Source: a virus. Taken from it: 26,183 nucleotides of DNA. The notes under the pieces are model-generated. The model searched no databases and was not told the DNA's origin. It saw only the letters and a program-made list of their open reading frames with translations. The position numbers and the translations under genes are program-made. This document shows, piece after piece, positions 9,390-25,483 of the stretch. The stretch is taken from positions 1 to 26,183 of IMG/VR virus record IMGVR_UViG_3300042561_000312. One strand, given 5' to 3'. Each line of letters starts with the position of its first letter. Positions within the stretch are counted from its first letter, which is position 1.

Positions 9390-11090
9390 ATGCCGCAAAA
9401 CGCACTCGCCGGGTTGATGCGTCAGCCCGCTTGGAATTTCGAGGTTCCCGATGTCAACAACCTTCTCCAGCCCATCCAGGGCGGGATCGACCGGTACAAC
9501 AAGCAGGCGCAGCAGGCCGTCGAGAACGAGCGGGCAGACCAGAGGCTCGGCATGGACCGCGAGCGGCTTGGCTTCGAGCGCTCGCGCATGGCGCGCCAGG
9601 ACGAGAGCGAGCGCCTCACGCGCCTCGGCAAGATGGCCGCCGCGCTGCACACCATGCCGGACACGCCGGAGAAGGCCGCACGAGCAAAGGCGCTGCTCGA
9701 TGGGCACGCCGACCTTGCCCCGCAGTTTGCGCGCTACGGCATCAACGGGGCCGATCCGGTGGCGGCTGTAGGCATGCTGGCGCAGTCGTGGGGCGACTAC
9801 GACCAGCTGGCTAGAACCAAAGCACAAGCCGAGATCAACCGCACCAATGCGTCCACGTCGCTCGCGTCGGCGCAGGCTGAATATTACAGGGCTAAGTCCC
9901 GACCCGACCCGACCCCTGCCGCAGCTGCAGCACCGGCCGCTTCCGACCCGATCGCGCAAGGCTATGGGGTGGATGACGAAGGCAATCTGAGACTGCCGCC
10001 ATCTCAAAGTTCGTCAGGTCCGTCTTATGCCGATCTTCCCGGCCCGACCCGCCTGCCGTCGTCGGGTGCTGTCATGCCGGGCGTGACGATGGCGCGACCG
10101 TTCCCGGAACCGATGCGGCTGGGCGGTCCCATGGATGACATCGAGCGCTCCATGCGGCTCGACGAAGGGCGGCCGCAGGGTGTACGCATCGCGCAGGCCG
10201 GCCCGCCAACCAATTTGCTCAGCGGGCCGCCACCAGGCGCAACGCCACTCGAAAGCTGGCGCAACCAGTCATTCGGCCCGGCTGGCGTACAATCGCCAGA
10301 GGTGCGCGGCATTGTCACCGACGCTGGCCGGAACCGACGCTCCGACCCATTAGCGACGCGCGAGCTACAAGGGCAGCGCGCGCTTGAAAGTGCATCGCCC
10401 GAAGATCAGCAGCGGCTTGCTCGGTTCCGCACTGAGCAGGAGATGTGGACAGGCGTCTACAGGAGACCGCCCCGCGCAGGCTATTACTACGCGCCGGACG
10501 GTCGCGAAATGCCTTTGACAGACAAGAATTTCAAAGGCGACCGCGAGAGCCAAGCTGTCGCTCTCATGAACATGAACAAAATCGAAGCGGCTGGCGACGT
10601 GCTGCTAGGGAAACGCACAGGCCGCGTGGATGAGCGCGGCCAGCCGATCCGGGAAAGCGGCCCGTATTTGGCCACGCGTGCCATTGCGGGCAGCCTGAAC
10701 ATGGGTGACATCGGCCAAGCCTACGCCGACGTGAGGCAAGGCGCGCTCGGCATTGCCTATGCTCTGTCAGGCAAGACCGTCGCCGTCGCGGAAATGAAAA
10801 ACTTTATTGAGGCTTACGGTCCTACGCCACTCGACAGCCCCGAGCGCATTGCCAGCAAAATGCAGCGCATGCGCGACTTTTATCAAGCGCTTCTCACGGC
10901 GTCGCGCGGCGGCGTCAGCTACGAAACGGCGTTTGCGCGCGCTATGGCGGCAACCGGCTTGCGGAACCCGGATGGAACACCCGCGGGTGAGCCAGCCGCA
11001 GCATCCGGCGGAACCCGGCCTCCCCCAGCCAATGACGTTCGCGGCATGTCAACGGAAGATCTGGTGCGGAGGCTGAACAGTGGCCGGTGA
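9390..11090 (+). CDS. Putative DNA ejection/internal virion protein 2 (gp20-like position)
   Basis: 566 aa. Residues about 30-90 are highly charged (Arg/Glu-rich) and look coiled-coil. Residues 150-330 are rich in Pro, Gly, Ser and Ala, with low-complexity runs such as PTPAAAAAPAA, encoded partly by a short GACCC tandem repeat near 9901. The C-terminal part (about 360-540) is more globular, with conserved-looking aromatic and charged residues (YYYAPDGREMPL). An AGGTGA precedes ATG 9390. The composition and syntenic position fit an ejection protein; no enzymatic motif is evident. It overlaps the next gene by 11 nt. Confidence 0.55.
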   Translation: MPQNALAGLMRQPAWNFEVPDVNNLLQPIQGGIDRYNKQAQQAVENERADQRLGMDRERLGFERSRMARQDESERLTRLGKMAAALHTMPDTPEKAARAKALLDGHADLAPQFARYGINGADPVAAVGMLAQSWGDYDQLARTKAQAEINRTNASTSLASAQAEYYRAKSRPDPTPAAAAAPAASDPIAQGYGVDDEGNLRLPPSQSSSGPSYADLPGPTRLPSSGAVMPGVTMARPFPEPMRLGGPMDDIERSMRLDEGRPQGVRIAQAGPPTNLLSGPPPGATPLESWRNQSFGPAGVQSPEVRGIVTDAGRNRRSDPLATRELQGQRALESASPEDQQRLARFRTEQEMWTGVYRRPPRAGYYYAPDGREMPLTDKNFKGDRESQAVALMNMNKIEAAGDVLLGKRTGRVDERGQPIRESGPYLATRAIAGSLNMGDIGQAYADVRQGALGIAYALSGKTVAVAEMKNFIEAYGPTPLDSPERIASKMQRMRDFYQALLTASRGGVSYETAFARAMAATGLRNPDGTPAGEPAAASGGTRPPPANDVRGMSTEDLVRRLNSGR

Positions 11091-19965: not shown

Positions 19966-21867
19966 ATGGCGACGCTATCCCAAGGCCCGCAGCCGCAGTT
20001 CCGCAACATGTTGGCCGACGCGATTAGGGACTATAGCCCGACGCTGGCCAACCGGCTGAACGACCCAACTTCGGGGGCGGGATTAGCGGTCGATGCCGTG
20101 GGCGGCTTGGCAGACATGCTGATCGGTCAGCCCTACCGCAGCATGAACAACCTGCTCAGCCGGCCTTACGTGAGCGGCGACCCGCAGGCGGCTGAAGATG
20201 CGTTCAATGTCGCGGGGGCGGCGATGACGGGCGGGTTGCTGGCGCCACGGCCGCGCAACAGTTTGGGGGCGGGCGGGCGCGTCACTCCGGCGGCAGGGAT
20301 GCCAGAAACGCCGATCGCATTGGGTCGGTCTCCGGCAGGTGCTCCCGCACCCAATCCGCTGCCGTCTGGCCCGATGGCAGACGGTCGGCCGGTCCCCGTG
20401 CTGTCCCGTCCCGATCATCTACAAGGACAGGCGCCCCATATGACGCTGCCGGATGATCTGTTGCCAAGCGCATCATATGCTCCATGGTCAGTTGAAGGAT
20501 ACAATATAAGCCTTGGTGATATTGCGCCGACGCGGCAGATGCTTCAAGAGCAATTCGTTGCTGGGGCCGTGCCAGATGGTTGGTATGTGCACGGGCGGGC
20601 TCGTCGGGGCGACCTTGACACGGGGAACGTGATTCAGGGCACGCAACTGCCAGACGTGGCAACGCAATACGCAGGGAAACAGGGCGGCAGCGTGTGGGCC
20701 ATGAGGCCGGCACCGGATGCAAAAGTGCTCGACTTCACCAGCGACGCCACGGCGGACGTGAGGCGAACGACGGCGCAAGCGTTGATGGATTATCGCGCTG
20801 GGTCTTTGCCATTCGACCGCGACTTGACCGGCACCACGGGCCGGGAAATGTCGTCTGAGATACGGCAGGCGCTTGCACCCGACAGCATCGTCAACAGCGC
20901 GGGGGCGTTTGACAACCCGGAGTGGGTCAATTGGCTTGCCGATAGAACAAGAGCAGGTTTTATCAGGACACCGGACGGTGCCGTTGCAATGTCGCCTGAC
21001 GACGTGCAGGCCGTGCGCTTGTTCGCCAACGGCGGTCGCCCTGGGGCTCTGGCCGGGGCGAGCATCAACGCTTTGGCGGACAACCAGCCCACCGGCATCC
21101 GTGCCTATCACGGAAGCCCACACGACTTCGATCGCTTTGACATGAGCAAAATAGGCACGGGTGAGGGAGCACAGGCGTATGGGCATGGGCTGTACTTTGC
21201 TGAGGCCGAAAACGTTGCGAAGACGTATAAAGATGCAGGCCCAGAGGCGTCGCGCCAGTACGATATAATTAACGGGAAGCTGACTCAGCTAGCCAGGGAA
21301 ATGGACAAATATCGAGGAGGGACATACGGAACTTATACAGACCCCAAAGGCTACGAATTGAAAGCTGAATACGACAGGCTGATGGAAGATCGAAAAAAAA
21401 TTGGCAGGATGTACGAGGTGAACATCCGCGCGAACCCTGACGATTTCCTCGACTGGGACAAGCCGCTGAGCCAGCAGCCGCCGTCAGTACAAAAGCTGCT
21501 TACTGAGCACCCGCGCATGGGCCCGGCGATAAAAGATTGGGCCAATCGGCGTGACGGTGAAGGTCAATCAGTGTGGCACGCCGCCGATGAATTAACAAAA
21601 GATCCCATCCGGGCAGCCGAAGCGCTGAGAAACGCCGGTATCCCCGGCATTCGCTACCTTGATCAAGGTTCCCGTGGGGCTGGCGAGGGCTCTCGCAACT
21701 ACGTCGTGTTCGACGACAACCTGATAGAGATCCTGCGCAAGTACGGGCTTGTTGGCTTGATGGCGGGCGGTGCGGCTGCAGGCATGGCCCCGCCTGCCCC
21801 GAATCAGCTTGGCGAGGCGCTGTCCCGTCCTGACTGGACTCGCAACCTTCGGCCGGGGGATATCTGA
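19966..21867 (+). CDS. Polyvalent-type protein with ADP-ribosyltransferase domain, probably two in tandem
   Basis: 633 aa. Residues 1-150 form a Gly/Ala/Pro-rich N-terminal module with hydrophobic patches. Residues about 378-594 match the ART fold recurrent in phage polyvalent proteins: YHGSPHDFDRFD (H382), IGTGEGAQAYGHGLYFAE (Y410), VAKTYKD, MYEVNI before a DWD motif, IPGIRYLDQGSRG and NYVVFDDNLIEIL (579-590). Such enzymes transfer ADP-ribose from NAD+ to targets. Residues 206-352 show the same order in weaker form: WYVHGR (H209), VATQYAGKQGG (Y235), SVWAMRPAPDAKVLDF and FIRTPDGAVAMSPDDVQAVRLF, suggesting a second, diverged ART-like domain. A Gly/Ala hydrophobic stretch lies at 594-607. The start abuts the upstream stop, and the end overlaps the endolysin ATG. 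It could be injected as an effector or act late in lysis; the target is unknown. Confidence 0.75.
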   Translation: MATLSQGPQPQFRNMLADAIRDYSPTLANRLNDPTSGAGLAVDAVGGLADMLIGQPYRSMNNLLSRPYVSGDPQAAEDAFNVAGAAMTGGLLAPRPRNSLGAGGRVTPAAGMPETPIALGRSPAGAPAPNPLPSGPMADGRPVPVLSRPDHLQGQAPHMTLPDDLLPSASYAPWSVEGYNISLGDIAPTRQMLQEQFVAGAVPDGWYVHGRARRGDLDTGNVIQGTQLPDVATQYAGKQGGSVWAMRPAPDAKVLDFTSDATADVRRTTAQALMDYRAGSLPFDRDLTGTTGREMSSEIRQALAPDSIVNSAGAFDNPEWVNWLADRTRAGFIRTPDGAVAMSPDDVQAVRLFANGGRPGALAGASINALADNQPTGIRAYHGSPHDFDRFDMSKIGTGEGAQAYGHGLYFAEAENVAKTYKDAGPEASRQYDIINGKLTQLAREMDKYRGGTYGTYTDPKGYELKAEYDRLMEDRKKIGRMYEVNIRANPDDFLDWDKPLSQQPPSVQKLLTEHPRMGPAIKDWANRRDGEGQSVWHAADELTKDPIRAAEALRNAGIPGIRYLDQGSRGAGEGSRNYVVFDDNLIEILRKYGLVGLMAGGAAAGMAPPAPNQLGEALSRPDWTRNLRPGDI

Positions 21868-22589
21868 TGACCCCTTGGATGGATCACGCCTGGAGCCACG
21901 TCGGCGTATCTGAGACGCGCGGCAGCGGCGCCACGTCGGCCATTGTCTCCATGTACGCCAAGGCCGGGCACGGCGACGTTAAATCAGACGAAGTGCCGTG
22001 GTGCGCGGCATTCGTCGGCGCGTGCCTGCGGGACGCTGGCCTGTCCAACACCGGCAGCCTCATGGCGCGATCGTACCTCCAGTACGGCACCAAGATCGAC
22101 GCCCCGCGCGTCGGCTGCATCGTGGTCCTCAAGCGCGGCGCCCCGCCGGCCGGCCACGTCGGGTTTGTCACGGGCTGGGGGGACGGCAAGATCCGCGTTT
22201 TGGGCGGCAATCAGGGCGACAAGGTCTGCGAGGCAAGCTACCGCGAGGCCGATGTGCTCGGCTATCGTTGGCCACCGGCGGCAATGGCGCCGGGCGTGGT
22301 CGCAGGGCCAGCGCCCAAGCCGCTCGTCAAGTCGCGCACGCTCTGGAACCTCGGCTTAGGCACGTCGTTTCTGACCTGGCTTGGCGGGCTGTTCGCCGAC
22401 GCCATGCAGATCGTTACGCAGGCCGGGACGCAGTTTGCGGCGCTCGGCCCATCTCGAGAGATGTTGGCAACGATCGGCGGCAACTCCACCACGATCGCGA
22501 TGGCGCTCGGCGTCGGCTGCTTGGTGAGCGCTGCGGCTGTCAACATCGGGGACCGCACGCCAAAGGAGCCTCCCCATGGTCCTGCTTAG
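21867..22589 (+). CDS. Endolysin, CHAP/NlpC-like (TIGR02594-type) with C-terminal hydrophobic segments
   Basis: 240-aa peptidoglycan hydrolase, likely an amidase or endopeptidase. The catalytic domain (residues 1-135) has C46 in EVPWCAAFVGACL, H97 in AGHVGFVTGW and N115 in LGGNQGDKV, the Cys/His/polar order of TIGR02594 papain-like phage lysins. After a Pro/Ala linker (136-155), a SRTLWN-type segment leads into two hydrophobic stretches, about 159-177 and 208-225, that could span or tether to the membrane. ATG 21867 overlaps the upstream TGA. It overlaps the i-spanin start by 14 nt. The hydrophobic tail is typical of some Rhizobiales-phage lysins in my recollection; whether it acts as an anchor or holin-like part is unproven. 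Confidence 0.85.
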   Translation: MTPWMDHAWSHVGVSETRGSGATSAIVSMYAKAGHGDVKSDEVPWCAAFVGACLRDAGLSNTGSLMARSYLQYGTKIDAPRVGCIVVLKRGAPPAGHVGFVTGWGDGKIRVLGGNQGDKVCEASYREADVLGYRWPPAAMAPGVVAGPAPKPLVKSRTLWNLGLGTSFLTWLGGLFADAMQIVTQAGTQFAALGPSREMLATIGGNSTTIAMALGVGCLVSAAAVNIGDRTPKEPPHGPA

Positions 22590-23507: not shown

Positions 23508-23807
23508 TCACCGCTCAAGACGGAACTTGAGCCAATCTTCTGATCGCTCTGTCCAAGCGGAGCAAACGGTCATGTCTGTGGTCATAACCAGAGTTCCACA
23601 GCAGTCTTGTCGCTCGTCCACAGCCACCGGCGGCAGCGGCGGCAGCGGCAATTTTACTGGATAACCCGGCAATACGTCACTTACCCAATTTTGTGGCATC
23701 GACGTCCGTTTAAGATCCGGATGCAAGCACTGTCTAGCGCGGTCCATCCCCACGGTTGACCAGTGCTGGCAAGTCGAGCACTGCCTGGCCGTTTCGTCGC
23801 TGCTCAT
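23508..23807 (-). CDS. Small Cys-rich putative metal-binding protein
   Basis: 99 aa, last gene of a leftward cluster. ATG at 23807 follows a strong GGGGAGGAAA on the minus strand. It has C10-x2-C13 with HW following, then C27-LHP, C69-C70 and C82-SAW. This CxxCxxW ... C ... T ... CxxW pattern is seen in small phage zinc-binding proteins. A Pro/Leu-rich stretch (about 53-62) separates the two halves. No enzyme motif seen. It likely binds zinc; its function is unknown. It ends about 140 bases from the right arm of the rightward terminator-like repeat, so the two transcripts converge. Confidence 0.65.
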   Translation of the reverse strand: MSSDETARQCSTCQHWSTVGMDRARQCLHPDLKRTSMPQNWVSDVLPGYPVKLPLPPLPPVAVDERQDCCGTLVMTTDMTVCSAWTERSEDWLKFRLER

Positions 23808-23822
23808 CGGCTTTCCTCCCCT

Positions 23823-24008
23823 TCAACCGCGCTGGTACGGGCTCGACTTCACTGAGGTGCCGTGCTCCACGGCGAGATCGTCCAACTCTTGGAACTCTTG
23901 CAACTGACTCTCGCTGCAATCTTCCGCGCGGATGGGCAACTCGCGCTCATCGAAGACGCTTGGCGTCTCGACGCAGAAGAATGCGTAACCTTCTCGTGCG
24001 TATCGCAT
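23823..24008 (-). CDS. Small hypothetical protein
   Basis: 61 aa. ATG at 24008 is 5 nt past the upstream gene's stop, with GAGGG overlapping that stop region as Shine-Dalgarno. Acidic, with an N-terminal MRYAREGYAFFCVETP strand-like part and a middle acidic helix (ESQLQEFQELDDLAVEHG). No family recognised. Supported mainly by operon-like spacing with its neighbours. Confidence 0.5.
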   Translation of the reverse strand: MRYAREGYAFFCVETPSVFDERELPIRAEDCSESQLQEFQELDDLAVEHGTSVKSSPYQRG

Positions 24009-24013
24009 CGGCC

Positions 24014-24292
24014 TTATCCCTCTTGCAGTGCGGCCAGTGCCGCAGTGACTTTGCGCTCATTGACGCTCCGAACCGATCCGCCCGGCAGGAGCATGACATA
24101 CCGACCTACGCTCGACCGCAGCAGCGGCCCCCGATCGGCACCCTGCTCCACGTACGCGACGTGCTCAAACCGGGTAGGGATGCGCCACTGCATTATGGCG
24201 TTGTTGGTCCAGTAGAGTGCTGGGTCACGGTCTGGCCGCTGCCAATAGCTGAGCGGCCAGACCTCAACGCGGTCGCGATGCCCGCCCATCAT
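24014..24292 (-). CDS. Hypothetical 92-aa protein
   Basis: Starts at ATG 24292, overlapping the upstream gene's stop as ATGATG; GGAGGG precedes it. The second codon is also ATG. The sequence is aromatic in the first half (WPLSYWQRP, ALYWTNNAIMQWRIP) and helical at the end (NERKVTAALAALQEG). The W/Y-rich segment plus FEHVAYVEQG looks like a small beta/alpha domain. No known family recognised. Confidence 0.55.
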   Translation of the reverse strand: MMGGHRDRVEVWPLSYWQRPDRDPALYWTNNAIMQWRIPTRFEHVAYVEQGADRGPLLRSSVGRYVMLLPGGSVRSVNERKVTAALAALQEG

Positions 24293-24750
24293 GCGCCCTC
24301 CGGGTTGTGCCGCTCACGGCGGTCAAACGCCGTGCCCGACAGATCAGCGTCGCGGTACGGATTATAGCCGTCGCCGCCCTCGTTGTTGACCGCATCCCAC
24401 TCGCGCTCCAGGCGACAACGCTCGGCGCGGGCCTTGGCGGCGGCTGCGATCTTGGATTGCTCAGCGTCGAGTGCCACCCTGGCCGCAGCGTACCCGGCGG
24501 CAATCTCAGCGGCCGTGAAGCCGATCCGCGTGCCTTTCGGAAGACGGTCGCAGTTGGCCCAAATCCAGCCCGCGAGACCGCTCGGCATGCCGGCCAATGG
24601 CGGCGTCACGTAGTATGCCTCGCCGCGCACGATCGGACGGATGTGAGTGTCTTTGCCATCTAACATGATGCGGCCTGCATCGCTAACCGCGATCAGAAGG
24701 GGCTTGCCGTCGATGGTCTTGCTGGCGTCGATGGTCTTGATAGTGGCCAT
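24289..24750 (-). CDS. Hypothetical 153-aa protein, first gene of the leftward cluster
   Basis: ATG at 24750 follows GGCGGAGA on the minus strand. The N-terminal half (residues about 1-70) is beta-rich (GKPLLIAVSDAGRIMLDGKD, then EAYYVTPP) with a GLAGWIWANCDRLP segment. Residues about 78-115 are a long Ala/Glu/Arg helix, and the tail is acidic and Gly-rich. No known family recognised. It lies 102 bp from the divergent gene at 24853, so it is probably controlled by the same palindromic region. Its stop overlaps the start of the next gene. Confidence 0.6.
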   Translation of the reverse strand: MATIKTIDASKTIDGKPLLIAVSDAGRIMLDGKDTHIRPIVRGEAYYVTPPLAGMPSGLAGWIWANCDRLPKGTRIGFTAAEIAAGYAAARVALDAEQSKIAAAAKARAERCRLEREWDAVNNEGGDGYNPYRDADLSGTAFDRRERHNPEGA

Positions 24751-24798
24751 GGTCTGTCTCCGCCCCTGATTGCCGCGAGGCGCCGGTTGATGCTGTGG

Positions 24799-24852
24799 AC
24801 ACTAGCACCGATTTGCGTTGCGCGCAAATGAAATCAGTGCTACATAAAAATT
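24799..24852. promoter_or_regulatory. Back-to-back divergent promoters sharing a palindromic -35 region
   Basis: Rightward: TTGCGC (24818-24823), 17-nt spacer, TACATA (24841-24846), then ATG at 24853, giving a start at or near +1 (leaderless). Leftward, on the minus strand: TTGCGC (24827-24822), 17-nt spacer, TAGTGT (24804-24799), leading to the gene at 24750. The two -35 hexamers overlap within the palindrome TTGCGCGCAA. The -10 hexamers are weak matches to consensus, so these are candidates only. Confidence 0.45.
24803..24842. promoter_or_regulatory. Extended 40-bp dyad, probable operator
   Basis: Outer arms TAGCACCGATTT (24803-24814) and AAATCAGTGCTA (24831-24842) pair at 11 of 12 positions. 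At the exact centre is a perfect 10-bp palindrome TTGCGCGCAA (24818-24827), separated by 3 nt on each side. It covers the -35 and reaches the -10 of the rightward candidate promoter, the expected placement for a repressor site. Symmetry on this scale is unlikely by chance in a 102-bp intergenic region. Confidence 0.65.
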
Positions 24853-25473
24853 ATGCACAGACCGAAGCCCCGAACAATTGTCTCTTGGGTCCGCCACGTC
24901 GGCCGGACCAGCGACGACGCGCAAGTGGCGGCGCACCTTGCCCATGGCGTACCGGCCAGCATGATCGTCGTGGATGGGCGCCGCGTCGGCCAGCGGAAGC
25001 CGGAGGATTGGGCCTATCTGCTGAAAAAGTTGCGGCCCGGCGACGTGCTGGCAGTCACGACATTACGCACGCTCATCGCTCCCAGGCCACGGGAGACGCC
25101 GCATCATGCTTTGGTCCGCGCGCTCCACGAGGTCGAGACCGCCGGAGTTGTGGATGTGGTCGAGATCGGCACGGGCCGCCGCACGTCTCTGCCGCGCGAT
25201 CGTGATACGATGATCGCGGACGCTGTAGCCGCACACCGCCGTGGCGACGTAGGGCGCCCGCCGCAGGGATGGGCCGAGGCCGGCCGGGAGATTATCGAGC
25301 GGCACTGGCACTCCACGCGGCACGCCACCAATGCGGATGCGCTGGCAGCGATACGCGAGGACGCGCGAGCGGCAGGGCTGGTCGAGCTGGCGCGGCTGCG
25401 CAATCCGCAGAGCATCGGCAATCGGTTCGGGCCGAGCGGCCGGGCGGGCAAATCGAAGCCAAAGAAACGATAG
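24853..25473 (+). CDS. Serine-recombinase-like protein lacking catalytic residues; possible regulator
   Basis: 206 aa, close to small resolvase/invertase length. The N-terminus IVSWVRHVGRTSDDAQ loosely parallels the resolvase YxRVSTxDQ start. LLKKLRPGDVLAV (residues 56-68) matches the family's LRPGDxLVV strand, and VGRPPQ (133-138) matches the GRP(P/K) hinge before the helix-turn-helix. At the LDRLGR motif, however, the sequence reads TLRTLIA, so the catalytic Asp/Arg residues are absent, and the Ser position is displaced. The C-terminal part is basic (ending GKSKPKKR), suiting DNA binding. ATG 24853 has no Shine-Dalgarno and sits at the predicted transcription start. It may be a dead recombinase used as a regulator of its own palindrome. 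Family call is tentative. Confidence 0.45.
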   Translation: MHRPKPRTIVSWVRHVGRTSDDAQVAAHLAHGVPASMIVVDGRRVGQRKPEDWAYLLKKLRPGDVLAVTTLRTLIAPRPRETPHHALVRALHEVETAGVVDVVEIGTGRRTSLPRDRDTMIADAVAAHRRGDVGRPPQGWAEAGREIIERHWHSTRHATNADALAAIREDARAAGLVELARLRNPQSIGNRFGPSGRAGKSKPKKR

Positions 25474-25483
25474 GAGGCCAATC

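Follow-up and report, generated by a model that had tools for sequence, protein, structure and literature searches.

A putative mobile cassette of temperate phages pairs overlapping divergent promoters with a resolvase-like protein proposed to regulate them

Introduction

What acts on a dyad in which two predicted divergent phage promoters overlap? The question is raised by a 26,183-nt stretch of viral DNA, hereafter the window, which is an entire IMG/VR viral record and probably a fragment of a viral genome. Structural genes in the window run rightward to about 23,300, with lysis genes at their end. Downstream of the lysis genes are four small leftward genes (23508-24750), a gap of 102 nt that contains the dyad, and a rightward gene (24853-25473) that encodes a 206-aa protein:

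21867-22589: CHAP endolysin, a lysis gene (family match)
23508..23807, minus strand: fourth leftward cargo gene, 99 aa (open reading frames and family searches)
23823..24008, minus strand: third leftward cargo gene, 61 aa (open reading frames and family searches)
24014..24292, minus strand: second leftward cargo gene, 92 aa, with a 4-nt overlap with the first
24289..24750, minus strand: first leftward cargo gene, 153 aa, without family (open reading frames and family searches; no counterpart in relatives)
24853..25473, plus strand: 206-aa protein with a predicted serine-resolvase fold, catalytic Ser/Arg not kept, proposed autoregulator (model and alignment)

Two further features of the window lie close to these genes. 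Near the start of the first leftward gene, 24705-24740 (TGCCGTCGATGGTCTTGC) is an 18-nt tandem duplication (89%) that repeats six N-terminal residues of the encoded protein. Ahead of the endolysin gene, a 633-aa protein (19966-21867) has a weak ART-PolyVal (ADP-ribosyltransferase-type) domain that scores slightly under the curated Pfam cut-off.

Results

The dyad coincides with two weak predicted promoters

The features in the 102-nt gap are as follows:

24799..24827, minus strand: predicted leftward promoter, TTGCGC-17-(TGC)TAGTGT, with -35 at 24827-24822 and -10 at 24804-24799; position conserved in 10 loci
24803..24842, both strands: 40-bp dyad, 16 of 20 pairs, proposed operator (sequence and inverted-repeat search)
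24818..24846, plus strand: predicted rightward promoter, TTGCGC-17-(TGC)TACATA, with -35 at 24818-24823 and -10 at 24841-24846 (sequence)

The dyad reads TAGCACCGATTT GCGT TGCGCGCA AATG AAATCAGTGCTA (24803-24842). The two outer arms of 12 bp (24803-24814 and 24831-24842) are complementary at 11 of 12 positions, and its centre, TTGCGCGCAA (24818-24827), is a perfect 10-bp palindrome. The TTGCGC -35 hexamers overlap at this centre, each is separated by exactly 17 nt from a weak -10, and the extended -10 elements themselves make up the outer arms (GTGCTA); the similarity of the arms extends past the promoter elements into the spacer (AAATC). A preliminary description, made from the letters of the window, had given the arms, the central palindrome and the 17-nt promoter geometry, and the sequence confirms them. 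Perfect 10-bp palindromes are by themselves common, with 37 in the window, but this is the best 40-bp dyad there and the only even one with at least 14 of 20 pairs. The number of dyads with at least 16 of 20 pairs expected per shuffled window is 0.067, and 20,000 first-order Markov sequences of the 102-nt gap contained none as good.

From the promoter positions, the rightward transcript is predicted to start on the A of the ATG at 24853 and the leftward transcript at about 24792-24791, within CATCA. Since the rightward gene also has no evident ribosome-binding site, its message would be leaderless or nearly so. Both promoters are weak relative to consensus, and neither was listed by a generic sigma-70 scan of the window.

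The control region and the rightward gene are shared between phages

The conserved unit has the following extent in the window:

24788..25480, both strands: conserved cassette, comprising leftward leader, both promoters and resolvase-like gene to slightly past its stop (blastn)

The closest relative, L002 (IMGVR_UViG_3300031951_001175), encodes a homologue 90% identical to the 206-aa protein; by blastn, 24788-25480 of the window matches L002 5936-6628 at 85% identity, and parts of the lysis region are also common to the two. More distant homologues (33-34%), with the layout seen in the window, are encoded by L003 (MW202785, a 40-kb circular podovirus, Manatee Spring) and by L005 (contig IMGVR_UViG_3300037502_002592, 40.6 kb). 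When all of MW202785 was compared with bases 1-40,000 of the L005 contig by blastn, positions 1161-1842 matched 509-1185 at 78.5%, a block that starts at the leftward leader, takes in both promoters and ends at the stop of the resolvase-like gene, and the only other DNA match was 33 nt. The leftward genes are unrelated in every case compared, and the gene for the 206-aa protein is the only one that always accompanies the control region. These comparisons indicate that the leader, both promoters and the rightward gene move between otherwise unrelated phages as one cassette. L002, L003 and L005 have one identical leader, CATCAGACACGGG, with the leftward -10 five or six bases ahead of it. The corresponding position in the window reads CATCAACCGG, a difference which suggests that the leftward genes of the window were swapped exactly at the leader.

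Two observations concern the surroundings of the cassette. Directly after the resolvase-like gene of the L005 contig is a YspA-like SLOG-family gene (L005:1202-1561; YAcAr, E = 2e-21). A 54-nt piece common to L002 and the L005 contig (L002:6723-6776 and L027:4294-4346) resembles the 3' half of a tRNA gene and lies near the cassette or the integrase; it is likely to be a phage attachment core, and ARAGORN found no complete tRNA.

The preliminary description had likened the region to a lysis-lysogeny switch with no recognisable CI/Cro protein. On a CI/Cro reading, the dyad would serve as the operator through which the phage chooses between its leftward and its rightward operon. Overlapping promoters that diverge from a dyad are consistent with this idea, and both near-complete-genome relatives (MW202785 and the L005 contig) carry an integrase, which identifies them as temperate. 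These same relatives argue against it: the L005 contig has a CI-type HTH and S24 repressor elsewhere (10189-10803), a separate HTH_3 protein is encoded in the early region of MW202785, and the cassette lies after lysis genes or beside an integrase, an accessory position, with variable cargo. Family searches found no HTH families among the proteins flanking the dyad and no HTH_3 match in the window record, which is probably a fragment. Given that the relatives have their own CI-type repressor or HTH protein together with an integrase, and that the cassette is accessory, we rejected the CI/Cro reading as unlikely; the cassette is probably not the lysis-lysogeny switch.

A leader search extends the family

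We scanned viral contigs for the leader pattern CCCGTGTCTGATGNTGNG on the reverse strand. The 14 stretches recovered comprised two known beforehand, five that matched by chance within other sequence (L030, L033, L035, L037 and L038), one truncated copy of the L039 sequence (L032) and six new loci (L031, L034, L036, L039, L040 and L041), all six with the divergent layout of the window. The leader is common to the new loci by choice of search pattern; the promoters and the divergent gene were not selected for. In each new locus the divergent gene is of the resolvase-family or resolvase-HTH kind. In L031, L034 and L036 its product is an intact serine resolvase (Pfam Resolvase, E = 1.3e-39 or better). 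The products in L040 and L041 are degenerate, with the resolvase pattern and without the catalytic residues, and that in L039 has only the resolvase-type C-terminal HTH (HTH_7, E = 7.6e-7). The L039 protein (L039:6047-6703 of IMGVR_UViG_3300047550_004243; 218 aa) has HTH-like and HNH-like parts at its N-terminus and is not a resolvase. A looser leader pattern yielded no new members, and L042-L047 have neither a resolvase-like gene nor the leader context. No bacterial relatives were found in two scans of genome contigs, and none on plasmids by tblastn. As a separate observation, the leader plus -10 is identical at 31 of 31 positions between L036:2982-3012 and L040:1323-1353, where the flanking proteins are unrelated or very divergent; the leader may double as a recombination joint.

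Promoter positions are conserved, whereas dyad symmetry is not

Both promoter positions align across four phages, and the TTG-17-TGC-TA geometry of the rightward promoter is also found in L002, L003 and L005; a scan with the right-promoter pattern returned mostly unrelated loci. We scored the leftward promoter against consensus, with p-values taken against positions in the same locus. In the window it scores 6 of 12 (p = 0.225), indistinguishable from the window background. In L031, L036, L040 and L041 it scores 10 of 12 (p of about 0.001 or less), with TTGCCA or TTGACA, 17 nt, and TATATT or TATGTT. Scores elsewhere are 9 (L034), 8 (L003, L005 and L039) and 7 (L002). Five of the later-found loci have strong leftward promoters (TTGACA/TTGCCA/TTGCAC, 17 nt, TATGTT/TATATT) at an equal distance to the shared leader. 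Together, the aligned positions in four phages and these five strong promoters support the overlapping divergent promoters first described in the window.

A palindrome that arose by chance in the AT-richer intergenic gap, with no function, would leave such alignment unexplained. With 0.067 equal dyads expected per shuffled window, one among many scanned windows is not impossible. Nonetheless, the block is about 90% identical in L002, as compared to 85% for the adjoining coding DNA, and the promoter positions align in ten loci; we consider an origin by chance highly improbable.

Conservation of the symmetry is a different matter. About six of 63 positions in the L002 control region differ from the window (~90% identity). 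These differences lie mostly inside the dyad, none is compensatory, and the number of pairs falls from 16 of 20 to 12 of 20; the promoter spacing is the same and the rightward promoter is kept. A family-wide test of ten loci gave no significant dyad signal at the leftward -35, and we therefore make no claim of a conserved operator symmetry. The preliminary description had expected the dyad to be conserved wherever its flanking genes are; the promoters bear this out and the symmetry does not, with 12 of 20 pairs in L002 next to a flanking gene product that is 90% identical. In the sequences compared, the DNA of the control region is conserved and the symmetry of the dyad is not. The loss of symmetry in L002 and the lack of a significant family-wide dyad cast doubt on the dyad as the operator, and the true operator could be something other than the dyad at 24803-24842.

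The same data bear on another idea, in which the region is no more than a pair of divergent promoters. The dyad would then result from the opposed orientation of two similar extended -10/-35 promoters (GTGCTA at the ends, TTGCGC at the centre), and a regulator would be absent or encoded by the host. The arms coincide with the extended -10s and the centre with the -35s, L002 loses symmetry and keeps its rightward promoter, and there is no dyad signal family-wide, all as this idea would predict. By contrast, it does not account for the similarity of the arms in the AAATC of the spacer, beyond the promoter elements, or for a control region that is always accompanied by a resolvase-family or resolvase-HTH protein. 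We regard it as possible, though doubtful.

The 206-aa protein resembles a resolvase that has lost its catalytic residues

Sequence searches of Pfam (including Resolvase), PHROGs and the PDB gave no resolvase match for the 206-aa protein, so the link to resolvases rests on structure and profiles. An AlphaFold2 model (pLDDT 63 with three sequences, 70 with eight) has strands and helices in resolvase order. Foldseek matched this model to gamma-delta/Tn3 resolvase in the PDB (1zr2, 1gdt and 2gm5; E = 5.6e-6, probability 1.00), and a separate search agrees; the fold match supports the earlier suggestion that the rightward gene is resolvase-like. Profile comparison linked the window subfamily to the cassette's intact resolvases (E = 3.3e-7, probability 93) and, more weakly, to L040 and L041 (E = 5.5e-5, probability 66).

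We aligned these proteins with their intact relatives and gamma-delta resolvase, the gamma-delta sequence in the alignment and tree having been entered by hand. L031, L034 and L036 have YARVS, a DRLGR-type motif and the Arg close to position 45 intact; the window protein, L002, L003, L005, L040 and L041 do not keep them. The window protein has WVR-HVG for YARVS, RTLIA for DRLGR and P50 at the R45 position, and keeps R8; catalytic Ser10 and R45, R68 and R71 of gamma-delta/Tn3 TnpR have no equivalents in it. In L005 and L003, a serine near the catalytic position is kept and the arginines are lost. A small tree places the dead proteins together in one group (100/100), albeit on a long branch, which can be misleading. 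The C-terminal domain, modelled with modest confidence (pLDDT of about 45-70), has helices at 140-152, 161-173 and 185-192, and a Pfam search gave no HTH_7 match for the window protein. Most likely, the 206-aa protein is a resolvase that has lost its catalytic residues and is now a gene switch; from its sequence, it is no longer expected to cut DNA.

Resolvase half-sites are about 12 bp, the size of the dyad arms, and some members of the family are intact resolvases that share this control region. Both points are consistent with the dyad being a res-like or invertible recombination site on which the protein still acts catalytically. We rejected this reading as very unlikely: the catalytic Ser and Arg are missing from the window protein and five relatives (with some variation), and every record searched contains a single copy of the control site and no partner for it. 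The inverted-repeat search found one dyad, not the three subsites of res.

Discussion

We propose, with a probability of roughly 55%, that a catalytically dead resolvase of a mobile temperate-phage cassette represses its own promoter and that of the divergent cargo genes, in the manner of Tn3 TnpR. The dyad, the promoter positions, the transfer as one cassette and the missing catalytic residues come from sequence comparison, and the resolvase fold from a predicted model; from these we infer DNA binding, repression as the sign of regulation, and the timing of action. In this view, the region would supply the operator and promoters of a control cassette that moves among temperate phages. A dimer of the 206-aa protein would bind the dyad through its C-terminal helices and cover the shared -35 region and both -10 flanks. 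Binding would shut off the protein's own, nearly leaderless rightward transcript, such that autoregulation is probable, and would also shut off the leftward transcript of the small variable cargo genes. The outcome would be low, steady expression in a prophage and a burst of expression upon phage entry into a naive cell, equivalent to the action of Tn3 TnpR at res, minus recombination.

A broader proposal, to which we give slightly less than even odds, is that a temperate-phage lineage turned an active serine resolvase into a purely regulatory, dead DNA-binding protein. This would have occurred within a self-contained cassette of divergent promoters, fixed 5' leader and regulator gene, in which small cargo genes are swapped and whose intact and dead forms share leader and layout. 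What is new here is the cassette, together with the spectrum of its resolvases, some intact and others dead; we found no published description of such phage cassettes in the open-access literature. If the proposal is correct, the family offers a sequence series from working recombinase to dead regulator at one promoter architecture, along which the change in function could be tested stepwise. The leader and divergent resolvase-like gene would also be a handle for finding variable accessory phage genes, which are where anti-host and exclusion functions often occur.

Several known systems share parts of this arrangement. Vaccinia F16 is listed as a predicted inactive serine recombinase (PMC11980589) and is, likewise, a viral serine-recombinase homologue predicted to be inactive; unlike the phage protein, it is a poxvirus protein targeted to nucleoli and has no promoter cassette. 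The immunity regions of lambdoid phages resemble the cassette in having overlapping divergent promoters and symmetric, operator-like DNA, but the cassette has no HTH protein of the CI/Cro type, and its L005 relative has a separate CI-type repressor. TldR derives from the TnpB nuclease and parallels the cassette protein as an enzyme of transposon origin put to use in a phage to regulate transcription; it comes from TnpB rather than from a serine recombinase, and for the cassette protein regulation is a proposal. TldR proteins are phage-encoded and RNA-guided (PMC13418256). The closest parallel to the proposed mechanism is Tn3, in which the promoters of the divergent genes tnpR and tnpA lie in res and TnpR binding represses both (PMC7157771). 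The phage cassette differs from tnpR/res in that the window-subfamily protein has no catalytic residues, there is one dyad rather than three res subsites, no transposase lies beside it, and its hosts are temperate phages. The two nonetheless have in common a resolvase-fold protein, divergent promoters beside the protein's own gene, and exchangeable neighbouring genes.
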